A stretch of 64,000 bases of DNA from an uncultured Collinsella sp. (GTDB taxonomy: Bacteria > Actinomycetota > Coriobacteriia > Coriobacteriales > Coriobacteriaceae): positions 1 to 64,000 of the forward strand of contig CASDZW010000020.1 in assembly GCA_949285915.1 (NCBI GenBank), given 5' to 3'. Of the stretch, positions 3,714-12,841 are shown piece by piece (within the stretch, counting starts at the first letter, position 1; the number at the start of each line of letters is the position of its first letter). Both the position numbers and the translations under genes were made by a program. Under the pieces are notes generated by a model. That model was given only the letters and a program-made list of their open reading frames with translations, had not been told where the DNA came from and searched no databases.

Positions 3714-5090
3714 ATGCTAATCAAGCTCGCCTTGGGCAATGTGCGGCGCAGTGCGCACGATTTCTCGGTCTACTTCTTAACGCTCGCGTTCGCTGTGTGC
3801 CTCCTGTACTCGTTTCTTGCCTCTACCGATTATTTGCTCGCGCTCGAGCTCTCGCCCGACCAGCGTGCGGCATACGCTCAAGCGGGTGGCGTGCTCCAAG
3901 CCTTCGCCGTCTTTATCGACGTGATCTTCTGCTTTCTCTTGGGGTATGCAAACGCCTTTTTACTCAGGCGGCGCAAGCGCGAGTTCGGAATCTACCTGAT
4001 GTTGGGGATAGGGAGACTCCGGGTGGCGCTGGTGCTTATGGTCGAGTGCGCGGTGGCAGGGGCGGCGTCCCTTGCCTGCGGTCTTGCGATGGGATGGGTC
4101 CTTTCGCCCGCGTTCTCCCTAGTGGCGGCCTTTGTGTTCGGCGTCTCGTGGAGGCCGGTGATTTTGTTCTCGGCATCCGCCGCCGTGCAGTGCGCCTGTT
4201 CGTTTGTTGCGATCAGCGCCGTTGCCGCGGCTGCCGCGGTGCGCTGGGTCTCGAAGCGCCCGCTTGTGGAACTCATGCGTTTCTCCGGTGTACCGGAGCG
4301 CAGGAGTCTCGGCGGGGGCATGGCGCTGCGCGTGCAGAAGGTCGCCGCCGCGATGCTCTTGGCGCTCGTATGGGGGACGTGCCTGCTCAGCCCCGGATAC
4401 TTCATCGTTTTCATCATTCCCATGGGGTTCGTGGCGCTGTTTGGTTCGTACTTCCTCATCCGCGTCCTCGCGGTGTGCGTGCCCGAGCGGCTGCGTGCGC
4501 ATACGGAACGCTATTGGGCGGGTCTTACACCCTTCACGGTGCGCCAGCTCGAGGCGCGCGCCGAGACAGGCGCCATGGCGATGGCGGCGGAGTGCGTGCT
4601 TCTTGCGGCGTCGCTTTGCATGACGGTGGCGGGGTTCGCCTTCAGCGTCGGCATGCGCATGGGCGAGCTGGTGGAGGGTGCGGAGGCGCTTCTGCCCATC
4701 GCGTACGCCTGCGTATTCTACGGCGCTGCTTTTCTCATCGCAGCCGCCGCGGTGCTCGCTCTGCAGCAGCTGGCGCGCGCGGCTGACGACGCGCCCGCGT
4801 ACCGCACGCTTGCGGTGCTGGGGGTCTCGCTGGGCATGAGGCGCGCTTCCGCTCGAGCTCAAATTGGCGTCGGTTTCGTGATGCCTACGGTGCTCGCACT
4901 TATTCACTGTCTCTTTGGATTCGTCCTCATCGGCATGATCACCATCATGATGGAGGCCGATGGATTCTTTCTATTCGCCGGCGGAGCCGTGGGGCTGACG
5001 CTCGGTATCCTCGGCGTCTATTATTTGTTGACGGTTCGCGTCGCCTCTGCTGCTCTCACTAGGCACAGCGAGCACGGTAGCGTTCGATGA
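3714..5090 (+). CDS. FtsX/BceB-like ABC transporter permease without adjacent ATPase
   Basis: The start ATG follows GGGAGG. The 458-residue protein has about ten hydrophobic segments. Its first part resembles FtsX-type permeases of the BceB group: IKLALGNVRRSAHDFSVYF at the start, FLLRRRKREFGIYLMLGIGR in the first cytoplasmic loop, and the coupling-helix-like RPLVELMRFSG. It is shorter than the roughly 600-660 residues of BceB, and no large extracellular domain between membrane segments is visible. Permeases of this kind normally pair with an ATPase encoded next door; none is seen here. Substrate unknown, with peptide antibiotic or bacitracin-type export only a guess. The 3' end overlaps the convergent Rrf2 gene by 32 bases. 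Confidence 0.75.
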   Translation: MLIKLALGNVRRSAHDFSVYFLTLAFAVCLLYSFLASTDYLLALELSPDQRAAYAQAGGVLQAFAVFIDVIFCFLLGYANAFLLRRRKREFGIYLMLGIGRLRVALVLMVECAVAGAASLACGLAMGWVLSPAFSLVAAFVFGVSWRPVILFSASAAVQCACSFVAISAVAAAAAVRWVSKRPLVELMRFSGVPERRSLGGGMALRVQKVAAAMLLALVWGTCLLSPGYFIVFIIPMGFVALFGSYFLIRVLAVCVPERLRAHTERYWAGLTPFTVRQLEARAETGAMAMAAECVLLAASLCMTVAGFAFSVGMRMGELVEGAEALLPIAYACVFYGAAFLIAAAAVLALQQLARAADDAPAYRTLAVLGVSLGMRRASARAQIGVGFVMPTVLALIHCLFGFVLIGMITIMMEADGFFLFAGGAVGLTLGILGVYYLLTVRVASAALTRHSEHGSVR

Positions 5091-5481
5091 TCTGAGCGAG
5101 GGAAACGCCCGCCATGGCGTCTTCCGCCGCCTGCTGCACGTCATCGAAGTACTCCCCGATGGCGAGCTGCGCGTTCACTCCCACGCCGCAAGCCGGGTTG
5201 GTGTGCGTGTCGAGATGCAGGAGCGGCTTTTCGCCTTCGACCGCGCGGTAGACGTCGAGCATGGAGATGTCCTCAGCGTCGCGCGCGAGCTCGGGGCGAG
5301 CGTGGCCGATGACCGATGTGATGATTCCGGCGCGCCGCAGGCGTCCCATAAGCTGTCGGACGGAGGACGGGTTGGCGGCAAGGCTCTTGGCGATGGCGCC
5401 GCTCGAGAGGTCGGCTCCCTGTTCGGTGGCTATGAATACGAGTAGGTGCAGGGCATCGCTCAGCTTGGTTGAATAAGCCAT
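5059..5481 (-). CDS. Rrf2-family transcriptional regulator, likely repressor of the sirtuin operon
   Basis: The start is ATG 5481 behind AAGGAG; an upstream in-frame extension has no ribosome site. The 140 residues show the Rrf2 winged helix: STKLSDALHLLVFIA, LSSGAIAKSLAANPSSVRQLMGRLRRAGII, then ARDAEDISMLDVYRAVEG. The three-Cys iron-sulfur cluster of IscR/NsrR is absent. Only two Cys remain, one in NPACGVGVN, which resembles the YwnA-like subgroup, so sensing may use a single Cys or another ligand. It is divergent from the sirtuin genes. Two 23-bp GCTGT-N13-ACAGC sites cover its own promoter and the sirtuin promoter, so autoregulation and operon control are likely. Confidence 0.85.
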   Translation of the reverse strand: MAYSTKLSDALHLLVFIATEQGADLSSGAIAKSLAANPSSVRQLMGRLRRAGIITSVIGHARPELARDAEDISMLDVYRAVEGEKPLLHLDTHTNPACGVGVNAQLAIGEYFDDVQQAAEDAMAGVSLAQIIERYRARCA

Positions 5482-5499
5482 GTCTCTCCTTGTGTAGAC

Positions 5500-5522
5500 G
5501 CTGTCGACTTTATTATAACAGC
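5500..5522. promoter_or_regulatory. candidate Rrf2 operator over the regulator's own -10
   Basis: The palindrome GCTGT-N13-ACAGC spans 23 bp. On the minus strand it encloses a TATAAT (5512-5517) preceded by TGT, an extended -10 reading into the Rrf2 gene. It has the same outer arms and spacing as the site at 5553-5575. Binding here would give negative autoregulation; this is inferred from position. Confidence 0.6.
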
Positions 5523-5542
5523 AAAAAAGTATGGGGCTTGGT

Positions 5543-5551
5543 TGATAGAAT
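5543..5551 (+). promoter_or_regulatory. extended -10 promoter of the sirtuin operon
   Basis: TGATAGAAT forms an extended -10 (TG, one base, TAGAAT at 5546-5551). Transcription would begin a few bases later, inside the downstream palindrome and about 25 bases before the first start codon. No strong -35 is visible. Confidence 0.5.
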
Positions 5552-5577
5552 TGCTGTTGTAGTAAGTACAACAGCAA
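5551..5577. promoter_or_regulatory. perfect inverted repeat, candidate Rrf2 operator for the sirtuin operon
   Basis: Arms of 11 bases (5551-5561 and 5567-5577, TTGCTGTTGTA and its complement) flank GTAAG. The inner 23 bp match the GCTGT-N13-ACAGC form found at 5500-5522, and the two centres are 53 bp apart, close to five helical turns. The repeat overlaps the predicted transcription start and touches the ribosome site of the first sirtuin gene, an ideal place for repression. Confidence 0.65.
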
Positions 5578-5585
5578 GGAGACGC

Positions 5586-6422
5586 ATGGTGCAAGGCGAG
5601 GTCGGCTGTGCAGCGGATATGTTGAGCGCGGCAGATGCCGTGATCGTAGCGGCAAGCAACGGGTTCGACATCGCGGACGGCTACAACCAGTTTTCCTGCG
5701 ATAAGGAGTTCCTACGCGTGTTCGGCGACCTGCATCGGACGTGCGGTCTCACGAGTATCCTGCAGGGGCTCATGGCGCGCTGGCCGGATAGGGAGCTTCG
5801 ATGGAAGTTCATATCGCGGCTTATCGCCTACGGCTATCGAGATTACGAGCCGTCACCTGTCATGCGGGCGCTCGACCAGATCATGGCAGCCACGCCGCGC
5901 TTTGTGGTGACGTGCAACTGCAACAGTCGCTTCGAGCGCGCGGGATTCTCGACGGACACCATCTTGGAGACTGAGGGCAGCTACGCGCGTCTGTGCTGCA
6001 CGACTCGGTGCTCTGAGGCGACCTACGACGCACTCGCGTTTGTCGATGCCGACGAGGTTCCGCTCTGCCCACACTGCGGAGCGCCCCTCGATGTCGCGGT
6101 CGATGATGCGGGGCACATCGCCCGTCTTGAGCCCTTCCGTTCCCAGGCGGCGCGTCTGCGGGCGTTTCTCGCGCAGCACGTCGAGGAGCGCGTCTGCATC
6201 CTCGAGCTCGGTGTGGGACAGGCGAACCGCGCCATCAAAGCCCCGCTTATGGCGTGGGCAGAGAAAACTCAACAAGCGAGCTATATCGTCGTCAACCGTG
6301 AAAAGGCGGTACTGCCGGCGTTGCCGCTTGAACGGAAACTGGCACTGCGGGGGGATTTGGCCGAGGTGCTCATCGATCTCGCGAATGTCATGCTAGCCAA
6401 CAAGGCGGAGGAGCGCCCATGA
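5586..6422 (+). CDS. Sir2-superfamily protein 1 (diverged sirtuin-like)
   Basis: ATG 5586 is chosen because AAGGAG sits directly upstream. The 278 residues follow the sirtuin layout: an N-terminal strand and NAD-loop position at AASNGFDIADG (about 22-32), the TQN-equivalent TCNCN (109-113), the catalytic-His position reading TEGS (Glu130), zinc-type Cys around 137-142 with CPHC at 161-164, and ILELGVG (205-211) matching the GTS segment. It differs from its two neighbours: the NxD Asp is Asn113, the Gln/His position is Glu, and the glycine-rich loop is weak. It may be a regulatory or inactive partner. Its stop overlaps the next start (ATGA), implying coupled translation. NAD binding is inferred from family likeness. 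Confidence 0.8.
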   Translation: MVQGEVGCAADMLSAADAVIVAASNGFDIADGYNQFSCDKEFLRVFGDLHRTCGLTSILQGLMARWPDRELRWKFISRLIAYGYRDYEPSPVMRALDQIMAATPRFVVTCNCNSRFERAGFSTDTILETEGSYARLCCTTRCSEATYDALAFVDADEVPLCPHCGAPLDVAVDDAGHIARLEPFRSQAARLRAFLAQHVEERVCILELGVGQANRAIKAPLMAWAEKTQQASYIVVNREKAVLPALPLERKLALRGDLAEVLIDLANVMLANKAEERP

Positions 6423-7372
6423 GCCGGCTTATGAGCTTGTACGCCCAGCATCTAGGGGCAGCCGCGCCCCGGGCGCTGGGAGATGGGGCGGCTTTGGAAG
6501 CCGCCGTGGCACGCGCTGCCGAGCTCTTGCGCGAAGCGGATGCCGTGGTGGTGGGCATCGGCTCGGGTATGTCGAGTGCCTGCGGGTACGACCACTACCA
6601 CCCGATCGCGGAGTTCGGTCAGGGCGGGAGCTTCGAGCGCTTTCGGCGCGCTCATGGTTTTGAAACCCTCATGGACGGCTACTACCACCTTTACGCGACC
6701 AATGAGGAGCGCTGGGCGTTTACCGCCGCCTACATCGACTATATGGAGTCCGCCCCTGTCGGTCGCGCCTACCGTCAACTCGCCTCGTTGCTTACGTCGC
6801 GGGACCATGTCGTGCTCACAACGAATGTGGACGGTCAGGTTCGCCGTGCCTTTCCCGATGCGCGAACCTGGCTCTTCCAGGGGGACTTCGCGTTCCTGCA
6901 GTGCTCCCAACCCTGTTGCGACAAGCTCTGGCCGGCAGGCCCTTACGTCAAGGAGATGCTCGACGCCATGGGTGAGGACGGCGTCTCCGTGCCCTCCGAG
7001 CTCCTTCCGCGCTGCCCGCGCTGCGGCTGGCTCATGGCTCCCTGGGTGCGCGATGAGGCGTTTCTCGAGGGTAGCCTGTGGCAGGCGCAGCGCCGCCGCT
7101 ACGAGGCGTTCGTCAGCTCCGCGCTCAAGGGCTCCGGGCGCGCGGTCTTCTTGGAGCTCGGTGTGGGCGGCATGACGCCGAGCATCATCGAGCTGCCGTT
7201 TTGGGACATGGTGGCGCGCCATGACAACGCCTCCCTCATACGGATCAATACGGGGAAGAGGGCGGAGCCGCGCCATCTGGGGGAGCGCTCGCTCACTATC
7301 TGTGCCGACATCGCGGGTGCGATGGACGCGCTGTGCGCGGTTCTTGGTATACATGAGAAAGGTGAGGTATGA
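6419..7372 (+). CDS. Sir2-superfamily protein 2 (SirTM-like, His replaced by Gln)
   Basis: This 317-residue protein keeps recognisable sirtuin motifs: the NAD loop GIGSGMSSACGYDHY (about 46-60), TTNVDGQ (134-140) with Asn136 and Asp138, and FQGD (153-156), where Gln154 takes the place of the catalytic His. Zinc-type Cys are at 162, 166/167, 199 and 202 (CPRC), and FLELGVG comes later. To my knowledge Gln at that position, with the Asn retained, is characteristic of class M sirtuins, which ADP-ribosylate rather than deacetylate. SirTM operons described in Firmicutes also carry a macrodomain and a lipoylated GcvH-like carrier; neither is present. Start and stop overlap the flanking sirtuin genes by four bases. 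Confidence 0.85.
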   Translation: MSRLMSLYAQHLGAAAPRALGDGAALEAAVARAAELLREADAVVVGIGSGMSSACGYDHYHPIAEFGQGGSFERFRRAHGFETLMDGYYHLYATNEERWAFTAAYIDYMESAPVGRAYRQLASLLTSRDHVVLTTNVDGQVRRAFPDARTWLFQGDFAFLQCSQPCCDKLWPAGPYVKEMLDAMGEDGVSVPSELLPRCPRCGWLMAPWVRDEAFLEGSLWQAQRRRYEAFVSSALKGSGRAVFLELGVGGMTPSIIELPFWDMVARHDNASLIRINTGKRAEPRHLGERSLTICADIAGAMDALCAVLGIHEKGEV

Positions 7373-8340
7373 CGCTCTACGAGCAGCTGGTAACGACAAC
7401 GCAGATGAATTTCGAGCGCTACCACGGCGTCTACGCGGCGGGTGGCGTGCCCTACGAGCTCGCGGGTCCCTCTCCGCTCTCATATGACGAGCAGGTCGAG
7501 CGGCTTGCACAGGAGGTCGAAGAAGCTGACTGCGTGCTCGTGGGCGGCGCCTCCGGACTTTCGGCAGCGGGTGGTGGCGACTTCTACTACGGGGACACGC
7601 CCTCGTTCCGCGCGCACTTCGGCAAGTTCGCCGAAAAGTACGGCATCAAGGGCGCCTTCGACGGGAGCTTCCGCCAGTGGGAGACGCCGGAGGAGAAGTG
7701 GGCGTACCTCTCCACGTTCCTCTACACCACCCAGACGGCCCCGATGCGCCAGCCCTATCTCGACCTCGACGGGCTCCTTGCGGGCAAGGATTTTTTCGTC
7801 CTCACCACCAATCAGGATACGCAGTTTGTGAAGCTGTATCCGGAAGAGAAGGTGGCCGAGATTCAGGGCGATCACCGCTTCTTCCAATGCGCGCGCTGTT
7901 GCACGGATGACACCTGGGACGCCGTTGAGCCGGTGCGGCAGATGATCGAGGCGCAAGGCGACGGGACGCGCATTCCTACCGAGCTCATCCCGCGCTGCCC
8001 GCACTGCGGCGGGGAGGCGTTCCCGTGGGTGCGCGGCTACGGCAACTTCCTGCAGGGCAAGAAGTACGAGGGTGAATACCGTAAGGTCTCGGATTGGATT
8101 GCCGCACATGCCGATCGTCGCCTGCTGCTTCTGGAACTGGGCGTCGGCCGTATCACGCCCATGTTCATCCAGGAACCGTTCTGGAACATCACGCTCTCGC
8201 TGCCGCATGCGCGCTACGTTGCAGTGAACGACCGCTACGATTTTCTGCCAGCGCAGATTGCGGACAAGGGCATGGTTATCGTAGCGGATATCGCTCGCGC
8301 GCTCGCAGACGCGCGAATTGTGCGGGGCAAGTTCCAATAG
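7369..8340 (+). CDS. Sir2-superfamily protein 3 (SirTM-like, His replaced by Gln)
   Basis: This 323-residue paralogue of the preceding protein has a longer N-terminus (about 50 residues before the first strand). The NAD loop is GGASGLSAAGGGDFYY (about 59-74), the NxD motif is TTNQDTQ (146-152; Asn148, Asp150), and the catalytic-His position is Gln166 in IQGD. Zinc Cys are at 174, 177/178, 210 and 213, and LELGVGRITP is the late NAD-contact segment. IQEPFWNI and the neighbour's IELPFWDM are closely alike, so the two probably arose by duplication. It is the third gene of the coupled operon. Activity as an NAD-dependent ADP-ribosyltransferase or NADase is inference. Confidence 0.85.
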   Translation: MTLYEQLVTTTQMNFERYHGVYAAGGVPYELAGPSPLSYDEQVERLAQEVEEADCVLVGGASGLSAAGGGDFYYGDTPSFRAHFGKFAEKYGIKGAFDGSFRQWETPEEKWAYLSTFLYTTQTAPMRQPYLDLDGLLAGKDFFVLTTNQDTQFVKLYPEEKVAEIQGDHRFFQCARCCTDDTWDAVEPVRQMIEAQGDGTRIPTELIPRCPHCGGEAFPWVRGYGNFLQGKKYEGEYRKVSDWIAAHADRRLLLLELGVGRITPMFIQEPFWNITLSLPHARYVAVNDRYDFLPAQIADKGMVIVADIARALADARIVRGKFQ

Positions 8341-8359
8341 TCACCGAAAAAGGAGCACC

Positions 8360-8680
8360 ATGAACAGGAATGTACGCATCACCGTGTTGAAGTCGGCAGT
8401 GGATGAGGAACTGGCCGAGCGCTATGCCATCCCCGGTTTCGAGGCTTGTCCGTTTCATCAGCCCGGGCAATCCTTCGTGAGCGACGGCACGCAAAAGCCG
8501 GAGGGACTCTGTGAGTACGCTTGGCTACCTATGCGGGAGATGGTGGCGCAGCTTTCGCGTGGCGAGCTGCTTCAGCCGCGCGGTACGTGGATGGTCGACG
8601 ATGACAAGGGCGTATTCACGTGTGTGGACGGTCTGCGCCCAGTTATCATGCTTATAGAGGCGATCGGGGACGAGCGTTGA
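8360..8680 (+). CDS. TIGR04076-like small protein
   Basis: The 106-residue protein starts at ATG 8360 behind AAGGAG, 19 bases after the third sirtuin, so it is probably the fourth gene of the operon. The pattern fits the small uncharacterised TIGR04076 family as I remember it: a first strand VRITVLKSAVDEELAERY, CPFHQPGQSFVSDG, PEGLCEYAWLPMREMV, then FTCVDGLRPVIMLIEAI. Conserved-looking residues are Cys in CPF, Cys in GLCEYAW, and a late Cys in TCVDGLRP. No enzymatic activity is known to me. Its repeated Cys suggest metal or redox chemistry, but that is a guess. Confidence 0.65.
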   Translation: MNRNVRITVLKSAVDEELAERYAIPGFEACPFHQPGQSFVSDGTQKPEGLCEYAWLPMREMVAQLSRGELLQPRGTWMVDDDKGVFTCVDGLRPVIMLIEAIGDER

Positions 8681-8702
8681 CGCAGCCATGAAATCGTGAA
8701 CA

Positions 8703-9140
8703 GTGATGTGCTCTGGGGGTGATGGCGTGTACGCGTCTGCAGAGGCTCTCACGCGGTTCTTCTCGCACTGCCCGGAGATGATGCCGGTCTACCGCATGCT
8801 CGAGGACCGCGTCAACGAGCGTTGCGGGAACGTGGACGTGAGGGTGCAAAAAACGCAGATCACCTTTACGGACCGTTTTGGGTTCGCTTGGGCCTCTCTG
8901 CCGGTGCGCCGTCGTCGCGATTGGCCGGAGCGCTGCCTCATAGTGAGCTTCGGACTTGCATATCATAAGGAATCGCCGCGCATTGCCGTCGCGGTGGAAC
9001 CCTACCCCCAGCGCTGGACGAACCATGTGATCGTCACGGCTCCCGAGGACATCGACGACGAGCTTTTGGGCTGGATCGAGGAGTCCCATCAGTTCTCGCT
9101 CACTAAGCGCCGTGGGAGAGGCGCGGGGTCAAAGGCGTAG
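8703..9140 (+). CDS. DUF5655-like protein
   Basis: The frame opens at GTG 8703; a second GTG at 8727 behind GGGGGT is an alternative start, and neither is certain. About 137-145 residues contain a pattern seen in DUF5655 proteins: FFSHCPEMMPVYRMLEDRV, VRVQKTQITF, FAWASLPVRR, LIVSFGLAY, and a late NHVIVTAPEDIDDELLGWIEES. The fold is thought to be a small alpha/beta domain often found beside DNA-binding or transport domains; function is unknown. It follows the TIGR04076-like gene by about 20 bases on the same strand and could close the sirtuin operon. Confidence 0.6.
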   Translation: MMCSGGDGVYASAEALTRFFSHCPEMMPVYRMLEDRVNERCGNVDVRVQKTQITFTDRFGFAWASLPVRRRRDWPERCLIVSFGLAYHKESPRIAVAVEPYPQRWTNHVIVTAPEDIDDELLGWIEESHQFSLTKRRGRGAGSKA

Positions 9141-9355
9141 CTCATCTGAACATCGGCGCATCGCTAACAGGTATTGCCTAGCGATGCGCGCTGGGTTCTC
9201 TCGATTGTCGGCGGAGGACATGTCATTGTTGAGTGGCCCCGAGAGTGTAGTGACCGTTCTTGTTGTCAGCTTGTTGCCATGGTGTTCGGCATATGACTCT
9301 TCACACCGAAGGAATTGACAATTGAAAAACAACGAACAAATGTTTGAGTTTATGT
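9141..9355. other. AT-rich intergenic spacer before the Fic leader promoter
   Basis: No gene is supported here. Base composition falls well below that of the neighbours from about 9300 onward, with TTGACA at 9315-9320 and a run of AAC/AAA. The TTGACA is 35 bases from the -10 at 9356, too far to be its -35 partner. Confidence 0.4.
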
Positions 9356-9361
9356 TATAAT
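9354..9361 (+). promoter_or_regulatory. extended -10 promoter for the Fic leader RNA
   Basis: TGT followed by TATAAT (9356-9361) is a consensus extended -10 in an AT-rich stretch. Predicted initiation near 9368 coincides with the start of the GC-rich structured segment, about 200 bases before the RhuM-Fic start codon. Confidence 0.6.
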
Positions 9362-9367
9362 GCTCTC

Positions 9368-9556
9368 AAGGTACGGGGACGAGCAAGAGCCGGCACGGAG
9401 GCCCCCAATGGTACGTGTCGGCGGGTATGCCAGATAAGGCACCAAGAGGCTGGCTGCACTGGTTCGACCTCGGGCGGAGTAGCGCTCCCGCTTCCCGGCG
9501 CCCGTTAATGCCGGGGCTCACAAGTCGATTGATAAGAAGGCCGATCTGTGAAGCGG
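9368..9556 (+). ncRNA. candidate structured leader RNA upstream of RhuM-Fic gene
   Basis: About 190 bases between a consensus promoter and the Fic gene contain no convincing reading frame but several consecutive potential stems. These are CCGGCACG (9390-9397) with CGTGTCGG (9414-9421), GAGG (9446-9449) with CCTC (9468-9471), GGAG (9476-9479) with CTCC (9485-9488), CCCGGC (9494-9499) with GCCGGG (9510-9515), and TCACA (9518-9522) with TGTGA (9547-9551). The third hairpin is preceded by a T-loop-like GGTTCGACC. I cannot match it to a known RNA family. It could be a regulatory leader, an RNA antitoxin, or chance pairing in GC-rich DNA. Confidence 0.4.
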
Positions 9557-9566
9557 GGGATGCGTT

Positions 9567-10547
9567 ATGGCTGAGCAAGCTATCAACAACCAAAATCATA
9601 TGAACGATATCGTCAACGAATGCTCTTCAGATGAACAGCGCATCGTGTTGTTCGAGTCGAAAGATGGTCAGGTTGAGCTCTCCGTCAATGTAGAAGAGGA
9701 GACTGTTTGGCTCACACAGGCTCAGATGGCAGAGCTGTTTGATCGCACCCAACCTGTTATTGCCCGGCACATTTCGAATGTCTTTAAGGAGAAAGAGCTG
9801 GTCAAAGAGGGTAATATGCATTTTTTGCATATTGCTTCTTCGGCTCGGCCGGTCGCGATCTACAGCCTCGACGTCATCATTTCGGTGGGTTACCGCGTAA
9901 AGTCCCAACGAGGTGTGGAGTTCCGCCGGTGGGCGACCGATGTGCTCAAGCGCTATATCTTGAAAGGTCATGCCGAGAATGAGGGGCGGCTGCGTCAACT
10001 GGGTGAGGTTGTTCGTATCATCGAGCGGATTCCCGGCGAGCTCGCTTCTCGCGAGATCCTTGATATCGTGGAGAGCTACACGGAGGCATACGAGCTCCTC
10101 GACGCCTACGATCGCGAGGCGGTGCCGCGCCCGAAGGGGGAACGTTCGACCTATGTGCTCGACTATGACGAATGCATGGCGCTCATTTCGCAGATGCGAC
10201 CGCGCTTTGCAAGCGACATTTTCGGGCGCGAGAAGGACGACTCCTTCCGCAGCAGCATCGCTGCAATCTACCAGTCGTTCGGTGGTGAGGAGCTCTATCC
10301 TTCGATTGAGGAGAAAGCGGCGAACCTCTTGTACTTCGTAATCAAGAACCATTCGTTTGTCGACGGCAATAAGCGCATCGCGTGCAGCCTTTTCCTGTAC
10401 TTCCTCGACCGTAACGGGGCGCTCTTCCGCGGCATCGAGAAGCGGGTGTCGGATAGCATGCTCGTGGCGATGGCGCTTATGATTGCCGAGTCCCGTCCTG
10501 AGGAGAAGGAGTCGATGGTCTCGCTCGTCATGAACTTCCTTATGTGA
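9567..10547 (+). CDS. RhuM-type HTH protein fused to Fic/Doc domain
   Basis: The 326-residue protein has two parts. Residues about 25-135 resemble RhuM/ORF6N-type DNA-binding modules (VWLTQAQMAELFDRT, ARHISNVFKEKEL, RRWATDVLKRYILKG). The C-terminal 140 residues contain the Fic signature HSFVDGNKR, with Lys at the Doc-like position, preceded by NLLYFVIKN. Fic enzymes transfer AMP or other nucleotide-derived groups to target proteins; Doc phosphorylates EF-Tu. Which reaction occurs here cannot be told. No antitoxin with an inhibitory helix is visible; the N-terminal module or the upstream RNA may regulate it. Such genes are often mobile; the flanks show no integrase. Confidence 0.8.
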   Translation: MAEQAINNQNHMNDIVNECSSDEQRIVLFESKDGQVELSVNVEEETVWLTQAQMAELFDRTQPVIARHISNVFKEKELVKEGNMHFLHIASSARPVAIYSLDVIISVGYRVKSQRGVEFRRWATDVLKRYILKGHAENEGRLRQLGEVVRIIERIPGELASREILDIVESYTEAYELLDAYDREAVPRPKGERSTYVLDYDECMALISQMRPRFASDIFGREKDDSFRSSIAAIYQSFGGEELYPSIEEKAANLLYFVIKNHSFVDGNKRIACSLFLYFLDRNGALFRGIEKRVSDSMLVAMALMIAESRPEEKESMVSLVMNFLM

Positions 10548-10679
10548 TGCTGTCGCGCAAGCGCATTGGACAAGATGCCGAGCGGATTTGCTAGCGCGCC
10601 GGAACCATCTTCGAGAGAATGGGGGAGGCGAGGTCCTCGAAAGGAAAGCCTTGCCTCCCGCCTGAAGGAGAGGTCGACG

Positions 10680-11156
10680 ATGATATCGGACAAGCTGCTC
10701 GCACTGCGCAAACGCGCTGGTATGAGCCAGCAAGAGGTTGCCGGCGCCATAGGCGTGACCAGGCAGACAATCAGCAACTGGGAGCTTGGGCAGGGTTCGC
10801 CCGCGCTTGATAAGGCTGCCGAGCTCGCGCGGCTTTACGGGGTGACGCTCGACGATCTCGCGAACGACGAGGTCGACGTGGTCAGTTCGGGCAAGGGTGG
10901 GTCCGTCCGCGACCTCCATGTAATCGAAGGGCTTGTGGGCAAGGTTGCGACGGTGGAGCTCGCCGACGGCGAGGGCGCTCTTATGCATGCGCTCATTTGC
11001 GGCGTTGGCGCCGGGTGGATCCGTCTTGAGTGCGACGCGCCCAAGGCCGTCTTCCCAACACCGATTTTCGGCGAGAAGGAGCCGCCACACCGCGTGCTCA
11101 AACTCGTCGACATGACTGACGTCGCCGGTTTTACGATCGAGGAGCGTGACCGCTGA
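10680..11156 (+). CDS. XRE-family HTH regulator with C-terminal ligand-like domain
   Basis: ATG 10680 lies behind AAGGAG, so the longer upstream frame is not used. Residues 1-60 form a Cro/CI-type helix-turn-helix (LLALRKRAGMSQQEVAGAIG, VTRQTISNWELGQGSP, AAELARLYGVTLDDLA). Residues about 75-158 form a small beta-rich domain (GLVGKVATVELADGEGALMH) of unknown type. It overlaps the next gene by one base (TGATG), so the two are probably co-translated. It may regulate itself and the small membrane protein; no target site was identified. Confidence 0.75.
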   Translation: MISDKLLALRKRAGMSQQEVAGAIGVTRQTISNWELGQGSPALDKAAELARLYGVTLDDLANDEVDVVSSGKGGSVRDLHVIEGLVGKVATVELADGEGALMHALICGVGAGWIRLECDAPKAVFPTPIFGEKEPPHRVLKLVDMTDVAGFTIEERDR

Positions 11157-11488
11157 TGGAGTACACGATTCTTGCGATGGCTTGCGGTACGTTTGCCATG
11201 GTCGTCTACATCATGGCGACCATTCCGACAAAGAAAGATCTGCGGAAGCTTACGGATGACGCGTGTCCGCGCGAGGCAGAGCTCGGGCGGATGCTGCGGG
11301 AGCGCATCGGCTCCTCCTGCGAGCTCGTCCTTTCCGAGGCGGGCGTCACGGCAGGCGATATGCGCCTTGCCGGCACGGTCCTGGACGTAGACGATGAGTG
11401 GGTGCTCATGGATTGTGCTGATAAGAAGGGCATCACCCAGCGCAAGGTCTTGCGCATCTCGCTCGTGGAGGGCGTCGACTCGGTCTGA
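11156..11488 (+). CDS. small membrane-anchored protein of unknown function
   Basis: The 110-residue product has one N-terminal hydrophobic helix (TILAMACGTFAMVVYIMATI, about 4-23) and a soluble tail. The tail reads as an Sm- or SH3-like beta barrel: SCELVLSEAGVTAGDMRLAG, VLDVDDEWVLMDCADKKG, RKVLRISLVEGVDSV. It is co-translated with the HTH regulator upstream, through a one-base overlap. No characterised family is recognised. Confidence 0.6.
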   Translation: MEYTILAMACGTFAMVVYIMATIPTKKDLRKLTDDACPREAELGRMLRERIGSSCELVLSEAGVTAGDMRLAGTVLDVDDEWVLMDCADKKGITQRKVLRISLVEGVDSV

Positions 11489-11551
11489 TGGAGGAAGGTA
11501 TAATGCAGCCTGCGCCCTGCAACTGGATAGAAGCAACGCAAAGGATGAGGC

Positions 11552-12841
11552 ATGGCTGAATCGTATGATCGTGACCGTCCGACTGGAGGCTCGACGTCTT
11601 GGGTCGCACAGCTCGCCTTCGTATGGGGTGGCGAGCTCGTGTCCGTGCTAACAAGCTCTATCCTCCAGATGGGCTTCGTGTGGCATATCACGCTCACCAC
11701 CAACTCGGCGAGCATGCTTTCGCTGGCGTCGCTTGCGGGTTTTCTGCCACTTGCGCTGTTCGGCATGTTCGCGGGCACCATCGTCGACCGGTTGCCGCTC
11801 AAGCACACGCTTATAGGCGCCGACCTCTTCATCGCCGCGGTGAGTGCCGTTGTTGCGATGGTCTCACTTGCTGGCGCGCTCCCGGTGTGGGTGGTCATGG
11901 TTGCGCTCTTCGTACGGGCAATCGGAAGCGCCTTTCATACGCCTGCGTTTCAGGCGCTCACGCCGCTTGTGGCTCCGCCCGAGCACCTCACCCGTCTTGC
12001 GGGCGTGACCCAGGCTGTCCAATCCGGCGGCTACATTCTCGGTACGGCAATCGCGGCGGTTATCTACCCGCTCTGGGGGCTCACCGCAATGATTGCGCTC
12101 GACGTCGCGGGAGCACTTTTCGCCACAGGGGCAGTGCTTGCGGCAAGGCTCGACGTCGGCGGCTCGTCCCAGAGTGCGTCGACGGCTGAGAGAGGCATCG
12201 TTCTAGCCGAACAGGTACGTGCTCTCGTCGCTGAGACTGCTGATGGCTACCGTGTCTTGCGCTGCTATCGCGGTCTTTTCGCTCTGTTGTGGTGTGGGTT
12301 CGCGTTCACGCTCGTCTTTTCGCCCATCTCGGCGCTCTTTCCCATCATGACGCTCGACCACTTCGGTGGAACTACGGGCGACGCGGCCACGGCGGAGATC
12401 GTGTTCTCCGTTGGTATGATTGCGGGCTCGGCGCTTCTTGCCAGCTGGGGAGGGTTCAAGAACCGCGCACTCACGGTGGTGGCCGCAACGGCTCTTTATG
12501 GCGCGGCGACGATTGGCGCAGGCCTTCTCAACAATGGCGGATTCACGCTCTTTCTCGTCGCGAGTTTCCTTATGGGGCTCAGCTCGCCGTTCTATTCCGG
12601 TCCACAGACAGCGCTTATGCAGGAGAAGATTCCACCCGAGTATCTGGGGCGCGTGTTCGGTCTTTACGGTGCCATCATGTCCTGGGCCATGCCCTTGGGA
12701 CTTGCCGGCTCCTCGCTCTTCGCGGACGCCGTCGGTGCTCCTGCGTGGTTTGTCGGCGCAGGTACGGCCATGGTGATACTCGCCGTCGTTACCTGGGCGA
12801 TTCCCAGCATCCGTCATATTGAGGGCGGGGACCTTGCGTAG
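11552..12841 (+). CDS. MFS transporter, MefA-like drug efflux type
   Basis: The 429-residue integral membrane protein has about twelve hydrophobic segments. Its early region resembles the DHA3 group that includes MefA macrolide exporters: FVWGGELVSVLTSSILQMGFVWHIT, then GTIVDRLPLKHTLIGADL at the loop between helices 2 and 3. A later segment, MQEKIPPEYLGRVFGLYGAI, is typical of this subfamily. Export of a drug or metabolite using the proton gradient is the likely role; the substrate is unknown. It is a single gene with its own ribosome site, convergent with the carbonic anhydrase. Confidence 0.8.
   Translation: MAESYDRDRPTGGSTSWVAQLAFVWGGELVSVLTSSILQMGFVWHITLTTNSASMLSLASLAGFLPLALFGMFAGTIVDRLPLKHTLIGADLFIAAVSAVVAMVSLAGALPVWVVMVALFVRAIGSAFHTPAFQALTPLVAPPEHLTRLAGVTQAVQSGGYILGTAIAAVIYPLWGLTAMIALDVAGALFATGAVLAARLDVGGSSQSASTAERGIVLAEQVRALVAETADGYRVLRCYRGLFALLWCGFAFTLVFSPISALFPIMTLDHFGGTTGDAATAEIVFSVGMIAGSALLASWGGFKNRALTVVAATALYGAATIGAGLLNNGGFTLFLVASFLMGLSSPFYSGPQTALMQEKIPPEYLGRVFGLYGAIMSWAMPLGLAGSSLFADAVGAPAWFVGAGTAMVILAVVTWAIPSIRHIEGGDLA

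Follow-up and report, generated by a model that had tools for sequence, protein, structure and literature searches.

A recurring pair of SirTM-like genes with a divergent Rrf2 regulator, a putative NAD-using module of Collinsella and other gut bacteria

The closest described relatives of the genes considered here are the class M sirtuins (SirTM). In SpySirTM, mutation of Asn118, Gln137 or Arg192 each cuts activity dramatically (PMC4518038). According to a 2024 paper, no SirTM target other than GcvH-L is known, and those of other SirTM systems are still open (PMC11490716). A further precedent is provided by FAM118A and FAM118B, two weak sirtuin paralogues that together process nicotinamide adenine dinucleotide (NAD) and that lower NAD in human cells when overexpressed together (PMC12700824). 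Here we describe an operon in a 64,000-nucleotide stretch of contig CASDZW010000020.1 (hereafter the window) from an uncultured Collinsella sp. (assembly GCA_949285915.1), in which three tandem genes for sirtuin-like proteins, P1, P2 and P3, lie divergent to the gene of an Rrf2-family regulator. By sequence comparison, all three proteins are nearest to the class M sirtuins. The recurring unit is a pair consisting of P3 and P1, with P2 optional, and from its sequence and distribution it looks like a new NAD-using device in many gut bacteria. Among titles and abstract openings in the open-licence literature on sirtuin pairs, Rrf2 and NAD salvage, no description of such a module was found. We propose, with about as much confidence as doubt, that the module is a redox-switched two-subunit NAD-cleaving ADP-ribosyltransferase in which P3 is catalytic and P1 its partner. 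The features of the locus are as follows, in window coordinates.

5059-5481, minus strand: gene for the Rrf2-family regulator (Pfam Rrf2, 98.7 bits, cut-off 30)
5499-5523, strand-neutral: site 1 of two operator-like inverted repeats, imperfect, close to the start of Rrf2 (sequence pattern)
5552-5576, strand-neutral: operator-like inverted repeat, site 2, with perfect arms (sequence pattern)
5586-6422, plus strand: P1 (gene 1), Sir2-fold protein with an altered active site, the recurring partner (Asn111, Glu130, catalytic Arg absent)
6419-7372, plus strand: P2 (gene 2), SirTM-type sirtuin, the optional partner (Asn136, Gln154, Arg211)
7369-8340, plus strand: P3 (gene 3), SirTM-type sirtuin, the best conserved of the three (Asn148, Gln166, Arg222)
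8360-8680, plus strand: TIGR04076 protein, an occasional neighbour (62.6 bits, cut-off 33)
8703-9140, plus strand: DUF5655 protein, a local neighbour (Pfam, 63 bits, cut-off 24)

A first-pass annotation made from the sequence alone had described three consecutive Sir2-superfamily genes that overlap by ATGA and are transcribed away from an Rrf2 gene, and the gene calls confirm this arrangement, with overlaps at 6419-6422 (P1/P2) and 7369-7372 (P2/P3). The family labels it gave to the two downstream genes also hold at the scores above. The start of P1 was set at the ATG at 5586, after AAGGAG, while the open frame extends upstream to a TTG at 5469. An Rfam scan of window positions 5000-12000, leader included, returned no family at an expectation value (E) of 0.1, and a promoter scan gave no match.

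From the 180 relatives found by a contig scan with P3, the 80 best were retained as module loci, so the sample leans to close relatives (64-98% identity to P3, with some near duplicates). Going by record titles, the hosts are Lachnospiraceae, Oscillospiraceae, other Clostridia, Collinsella, Olsenella and Slackia, together with Desulfovibrio, a Prevotella, Spirochaetaceae and Succinivibrionaceae; many of the loci are metagenome bins, so the odder hosts could be misbinned. The P1, P2 and P3 profiles were built from these same loci and P3 is present in 80/80 by construction. The first-pass annotation had named rare co-occurrence as the outcome that would speak against it, but P1-type genes accompany P3 in 72 of the 80 loci (at least 30 bits, fragments counted); P2-type genes are found in 27. 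That P3 and P1 form the recurring pair was not noticed in that annotation. Among the 65 P1 frames longer than 200 amino acids, 56 lie downstream of P3, eight upstream and one on the opposite strand, and eight show a 4-bp overlap. Four of the eight loci without P1 (L078, L084, L108 and L118) end no more than 0.8 kb downstream of P3.

Within the Coriobacteriia, 150/396 genomes contain some P3 match at E 1e-8; P3 orthologues of at least 62% over long matches are carried by 17, and one more has an 85% fragment. The P1 profile finds a match in 147/392 genomes of the class, though it also captures ordinary SirTM and so is not specific to P1. Two of the class loci depart from the usual form. In one (L131, G122:C1), intact P1 and Rrf2 genes accompany a single short frame into which P2 and P3 are apparently merged, which would appear to be a deletion or misassembly. 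The other (L132, G355:C83) encodes a P3-related SirTM with 46% identity to P3 and an Rrf2 gene nearby, with no P1 in the stretch read, and is perhaps a single-sirtuin form; we take its neighbours to be FMN (flavin mononucleotide) reductase-like and HD-like genes.

The best solved relatives of P1, P2 and P3 are SpySirTM (5a3a) and a fungal macrodomain-SirTM fusion (8rsn). SpySirTM is matched by P3 at E 1.1e-41, by P2 at 1.4e-38 and by P1 at 1.2e-22. Because the Pfam SIR2 scores fall below the cut-off (17.5 bits for P1 and 13.8 for P3, of 24; P2 is not listed), the Sir2 family assignment rests on the SirTM relatives and on the fold of P1. AlphaFold models have mean predicted local distance difference test (pLDDT) scores of 94.0 for P1 and 89.7 for P3, and the first match of the P1 model in the PDB is 5a3a, with a template modelling (TM) score of 0.82. 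The Sir2 fold supposed by the first-pass annotation thus survives these sequence and structure comparisons.

In a phylogenetic tree, for which the program warns of long branches, P1 forms one clade of 22 rows (support 100/100) and P3 one of 15 rows (100/99). The group that unites P2 with P3 (96/89) also takes in L029 (beside P3) and L033 (inside P2), two rows that had initially been labelled canonical SirTM. The remaining 15 canonical SirTM rows form a clade at 95/95, and the macrodomain-linked genes form a clade separate from the module sirtuins. The ratio of non-synonymous to synonymous substitution rates (dN/dS) is 0.16-0.20 for P1 (three comparisons), 0.15-0.22 for P2 (three) and 0.06-0.16 for P3 (four). 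At 0.16-0.20, P1 is not decaying and is under purifying selection; it has 28 invariant columns among 45 sequences.

The active sites were compared by transferring the catalytic positions named for SpySirTM (PMC4518038) by alignment. The rows, window included, number 15 canonical, 24 P2, 81 P3 and 65 P1; omitted were frames below 200 amino acids or 90 bits and three frames that belonged to none of the groups (L094_16, L095_39 and L099_6), the last of which served as a canonical row. The Asn118 position is Asn in every row, including P1 (65/65). The Gln137 position is Gln in all canonical (15/15), P2 (24/24) and P3 (81/81) rows and Glu in P1 (65/65), counts that are partly circular since P1 rows were sorted by Glu and P2 and P3 rows by Gln; in another tree all Glu rows stand next to one another along the leaves, and in the tree described above 22 of them make up one clade. 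At the Arg192 position, every canonical, P2 and P3 row keeps Arg, and none of the 65 P1 rows does; these have 55 other residues and 10 gaps. The replacement of HG by QG that marks SirTM is therefore seen in P2 (24/24) and P3 (81/81) together with the full catalytic Asn/Gln/Arg set, whereas P1 has EG (65/65) and lacks both Gln and Arg. In the window, P1 has TCNCNS in place of TTNxD and Glu130-Gly in place of Gln-Gly. The earlier report of Gln154 in P2 and Gln166 in P3 with TTNxD retained is correct by alignment. It had not set P1 apart, which is distinct both in its active site and in its clade.

Other pocket positions differ as well. At the position of Ala34, close to the amide of nicotinamide, 13 of the 15 canonical rows have Ala and the other two Ser; P2 and P3 rows have Ser throughout, and 63/65 P1 rows have Asn (two gaps). 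In the GVGx[NT]TP motif, the [NT] position is Asn in 15/15 canonical rows, Met in 24/24 P2 rows and Met (40), Leu (37) or Ile (4) in the 81 P3 rows, and the Thr-Pro of this pyrophosphate loop is missing from P1 in 65/65. Among 41 P3 sequences there is no variation at residues 222-228, around and after the catalytic Arg222, yet residues 223-227 have pLDDT below 50 in the model; this combination suggests that the region may be a mobile functional loop.

These residues bear on what P1 does. It might be a non-catalytic sensor that gates P3 by binding NAD, NADH or ADP-ribose, a possibility that we consider somewhat less likely than not: Asn is kept in 65/65 rows while Gln, Arg and the Thr-Pro are each absent in 65/65, and P1 is nevertheless under purifying selection. 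The invariant Glu, allowing that rows were sorted partly by it, suggests a chemical role instead. Taken further, the P1 clade could be a new catalytic sirtuin class with Glu for His or Gln, forming a two-enzyme unit with P3, which would attach the ADP-ribose that P1 then processes or removes. We regard this as quite improbable; were it true, one fold would supply both activities and a macrodomain would be unnecessary.

Searches for a macrodomain used Zn-macrodomain queries taken from five of the 17 other SirTM loci. Such a gene lies beside 15 of these 17 (flanks of 1.5 kb), the two without it being L029 (P3-related) and L033 (P2-related). Only 2/80 module loci have a match in flanks of up to 7 kb: in L099 it sits by a separate SirTM about 4-5 kb away, and in L066 it is a fragment 5.7 kb away. 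The other 78 have no linked Zn-macrodomain within those flanks. Elsewhere in the Collinsella genome there is one borderline Macro match (21.9 bits, or 22.2 with neighbours, against a cut-off of 22; counted as over it), which the Zn-macrodomain queries do not match, and a CobB-type sirtuin (231.5 of 243 bits). A GcvH-type carrier (GCV_H) gave no match in this genome, which at 82% completeness does not prove absence; LplA was not searched for. As far as these searches reach, the first-pass claim that neither macrodomain nor carrier accompanies the sirtuins is borne out.

A rival account would be an ordinary SirTM that has lost its macrodomain, with P1 merely a drifting duplicate. P2 and P3 do retain all three SirTM catalytic residues, and four loci with room for P1 have none. 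We nonetheless consider this account very improbable, given the dN/dS and invariant columns of P1, its company with P3-type genes from Coriobacteriia to plasmids of Bacilli, and the separate clade of the macrodomain-linked genes.

An Rrf2 gene scoring above 100 bits is found in 58/80 loci, in 55 of which it lies on the minus strand no more than 600 bp from a sirtuin frame; the recurring Rrf2 and sirtuin operon that had been predicted is supported. The window protein scores 55.5 bits against the NCBIfam superfamily model, below its cut-off of 73.3. One cysteine, Cys98, is invariant in 59/59 aligned module regulators, as are His89, Asp91, Asn95, Pro96 and Gly101, a set that would fit a thiol or metal switch. 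In L083, L087, L095, L109, L111, L116 and L118, a TetR-like gene (TetR_N 23.3 of 24 bits in a representative) takes the place of Rrf2 directly before the sirtuins.

Two 25-bp inverted repeats, both absent from the first-pass annotation, lie between Rrf2 and P1. The arms of site 2 reach 11 bp if one flanking base is counted on each side (5551-5577), and the site adjoins the AAGGAG before P1. Scored against mononucleotide shuffles, a repeat consensus built on these same loci attains the 1% level in 47/58 regions, a circular result. In a held-out test, the window half-sites alone were sought in 52 non-coriobacterial regions and scored against dinucleotide shuffles: 44 regions attain the 5% level and 39 the 1% level, while eight fall short. 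A loose repeat pattern finds both sites and one other place in the Collinsella genome, where about two matches are expected by chance on a uniform-base estimate; a reversed-pattern control finds none. The strict pattern occurs only at the two module copies of a complete Faecalibacterium genome and once, at the module, in C. fessum. A wider regulon was considered and rejected, since no second consistent target of the pattern emerged; the strict form has no match in 5/8 module-bearing genomes. In Slackia (L130, 4557-4634), two strict matches, 25-bp and module-like, lie at a second Rrf2 gene, the protein of which has NPECPVG at the same place as the module regulator motif; a sister regulon is possible, and the protein encoded beside it is presumably NAD(P)-binding.

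The genes downstream of the sirtuins in the window fare less well as partners. TIGR04076 is found in 7/80 loci, two of them weak (29 and 52 bits), and DUF5655 in one, the near-identical L042, so both were rejected as core components. Of the first-pass interpretation, the recurring macrodomain-free operon of Rrf2 and sirtuins therefore stands, while the conserved place it gave to TIGR04076, and the partner role of both proteins, do not. Neighbour clusters that do recur (DUF3786 in 24 loci, TetR-like in 29, AraC in 16, ArsR in 13, and what we take to be a CooC-like ATPase in 20 and a P-type ATPase in 13) were set aside as module parts because their positions shift between loci; two others (c15 and c16) are in our judgement probably antisense frames. 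In L063, L067, L074, L075, L083, L090 and others, the genes near the module include DUF3786, the CooC-like ATPase and small zinc ribbons. In the window, a gene for a RhuM-family protein with a C-terminal Fic/DOC domain lies just downstream (9567-10547).

A link to NAD finds some support in the gene content of three relatives. In Paenibacillus sp. 37 and in Mesobacillus foraminis, a plasmid encodes P3-type and P1-type sirtuins together, followed by an HD-annotated gene, a nicotinate phosphoribosyltransferase (916 bits in Paenibacillus, cut-off 776) and an isochorismatase-family hydrolase; the divergent regulator of the Paenibacillus plasmid is of the HxlR/RrpA kind (126.8 of 185 bits). In Lachnospira UBA4346 (L095), an isochorismatase-family gene and a contig-cut phosphoribosyltransferase gene lie directly behind P1. 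The gene sets of the two Bacilli plasmids hint at NAD use with nicotinamide recycling. HD relatives occur in 7/80 loci, immediately after P1 in six and about 2.3 kb after it in L088. One Lactiplantibacillus plasmid, classified as conjugative, encodes an overlapping P3-type and P1-type pair (L148, 3289-5461). Its P1-type protein, whose annotation names no more than a cupin, is fused to a Cupin_5 domain (27.7 bits, cut-off 25); a TetR gene lies on the opposite strand, behind an IS30 gene. These plasmids, with their other regulators and neighbours, indicate that the pair persists while regulators and partners change. The P3-type protein of L148 seems to be without zinc cysteines.

The salvage genes could also suit a pair that acts as an NAD-depleting glycohydrolase, lowering NAD upon stress or phage attack with no protein target. 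FAM118A and FAM118B, which jointly lower NAD in human cells (PMC12700824), offer a precedent for this, as do the salvage genes in the three relatives. However, salvage genes restore NAD rather than drain it, PADLOC anti-phage models matched only P2, in part (E 0.0094 and 0.018), leaving the other five proteins unmatched, and phage records held one partial match at 30% identity. A scan of viral contigs with two peptide patterns confirmed no relative. We therefore think depletion unlikely. A mobile or phage origin of the module was rejected on the same phage and viral-contig results and on plasmid matches of P3, which number 25 records, all below 60% identity.

We return to the proposed two-subunit ADP-ribosyltransferase. 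Rrf2 would bind the two inverted repeats and hold the operon off until Cys98 is modified or a ligand bound. P3, and P2 where present, would then serve as the class M-type catalytic subunit, cleaving NAD+ and ADP-ribosylating an acceptor not encoded nearby, as the conserved Asn, Gln and Arg lead us to infer. By analogy with FAM118A and FAM118B, P1, with its Sir2 fold, its Asn and a different pocket, would most probably be a partner that activates or targets P3. A dedicated macrodomain eraser would not belong to the module, and in a few hosts the released nicotinamide would, judging by gene order, be recycled by co-encoded salvage enzymes. We infer the activity, partner binding, inducer and target alike; the hetero-oligomer and NAD depletion put forward by the first-pass annotation are likewise conjectural.

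Several observations weigh against this proposal. L061, L064, L082 and L106 have no P1 despite room, so P3 may work alone. Rrf2 is found above 100 bits in 58 and not 80 of the loci, other regulators lying near elsewhere. Salvage genes are present in 1/80 loci plus two plasmids; the best match of the plasmid hydrolases, nicotinamidase, reaches only 40.9 and 39.0 of 174 bits, and the L095 hydrolase is best matched by biuret amidohydrolase. The HD label falls just below the Pfam cut-off in two matching proteins, and three others have no match. Since the module recurs, a macrodomain is rare and its own regulator and repeat are frequent, the inducer, partner and acceptor are directly testable, and the pairing of a QG with an EG active site amounts to a natural experiment on what the sirtuin catalytic residue determines.

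Compared with known systems, the module shares parts with several. The Rrf2 domain is common to the regulators with a single NPxC cysteine, which we take to be the YwnA type; the module regulators differ in facing a sirtuin operon and in their invariant His89, Asp91, Asn95, Pro96, Cys98 and Gly101. CobB-type deacylases belong to the same Sir2 superfamily but have a catalytic His (PMC4518038) and occupy a separate deep clade in the tree. FAM118A and FAM118B, compared by description only, resemble the pair as two sirtuin paralogues acting jointly on NAD and differ in being vertebrate, filament-forming and similar to antiphage sirtuins (PMC12700824). The SirTM/Zn-macrodomain systems (PMC4518038, PMC11490716) are closest, with the same Sir2 fold, QG for HG and, in P2 and P3, the same Asn, Gln and Arg, and a redox setting has been suggested for both. 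In contrast to these systems, the module forms separate clades, has a linked Zn-macrodomain in only 2/80 loci and Met, Leu or Ile at the [NT] position of GVGx[NT]TP, and, unlike the extended SirTM operon, yielded no GcvH-L carrier in its 82%-complete host genome. What the module has instead is the pairing of a QG sirtuin with an EG sirtuin, often with an Rrf2 regulator.

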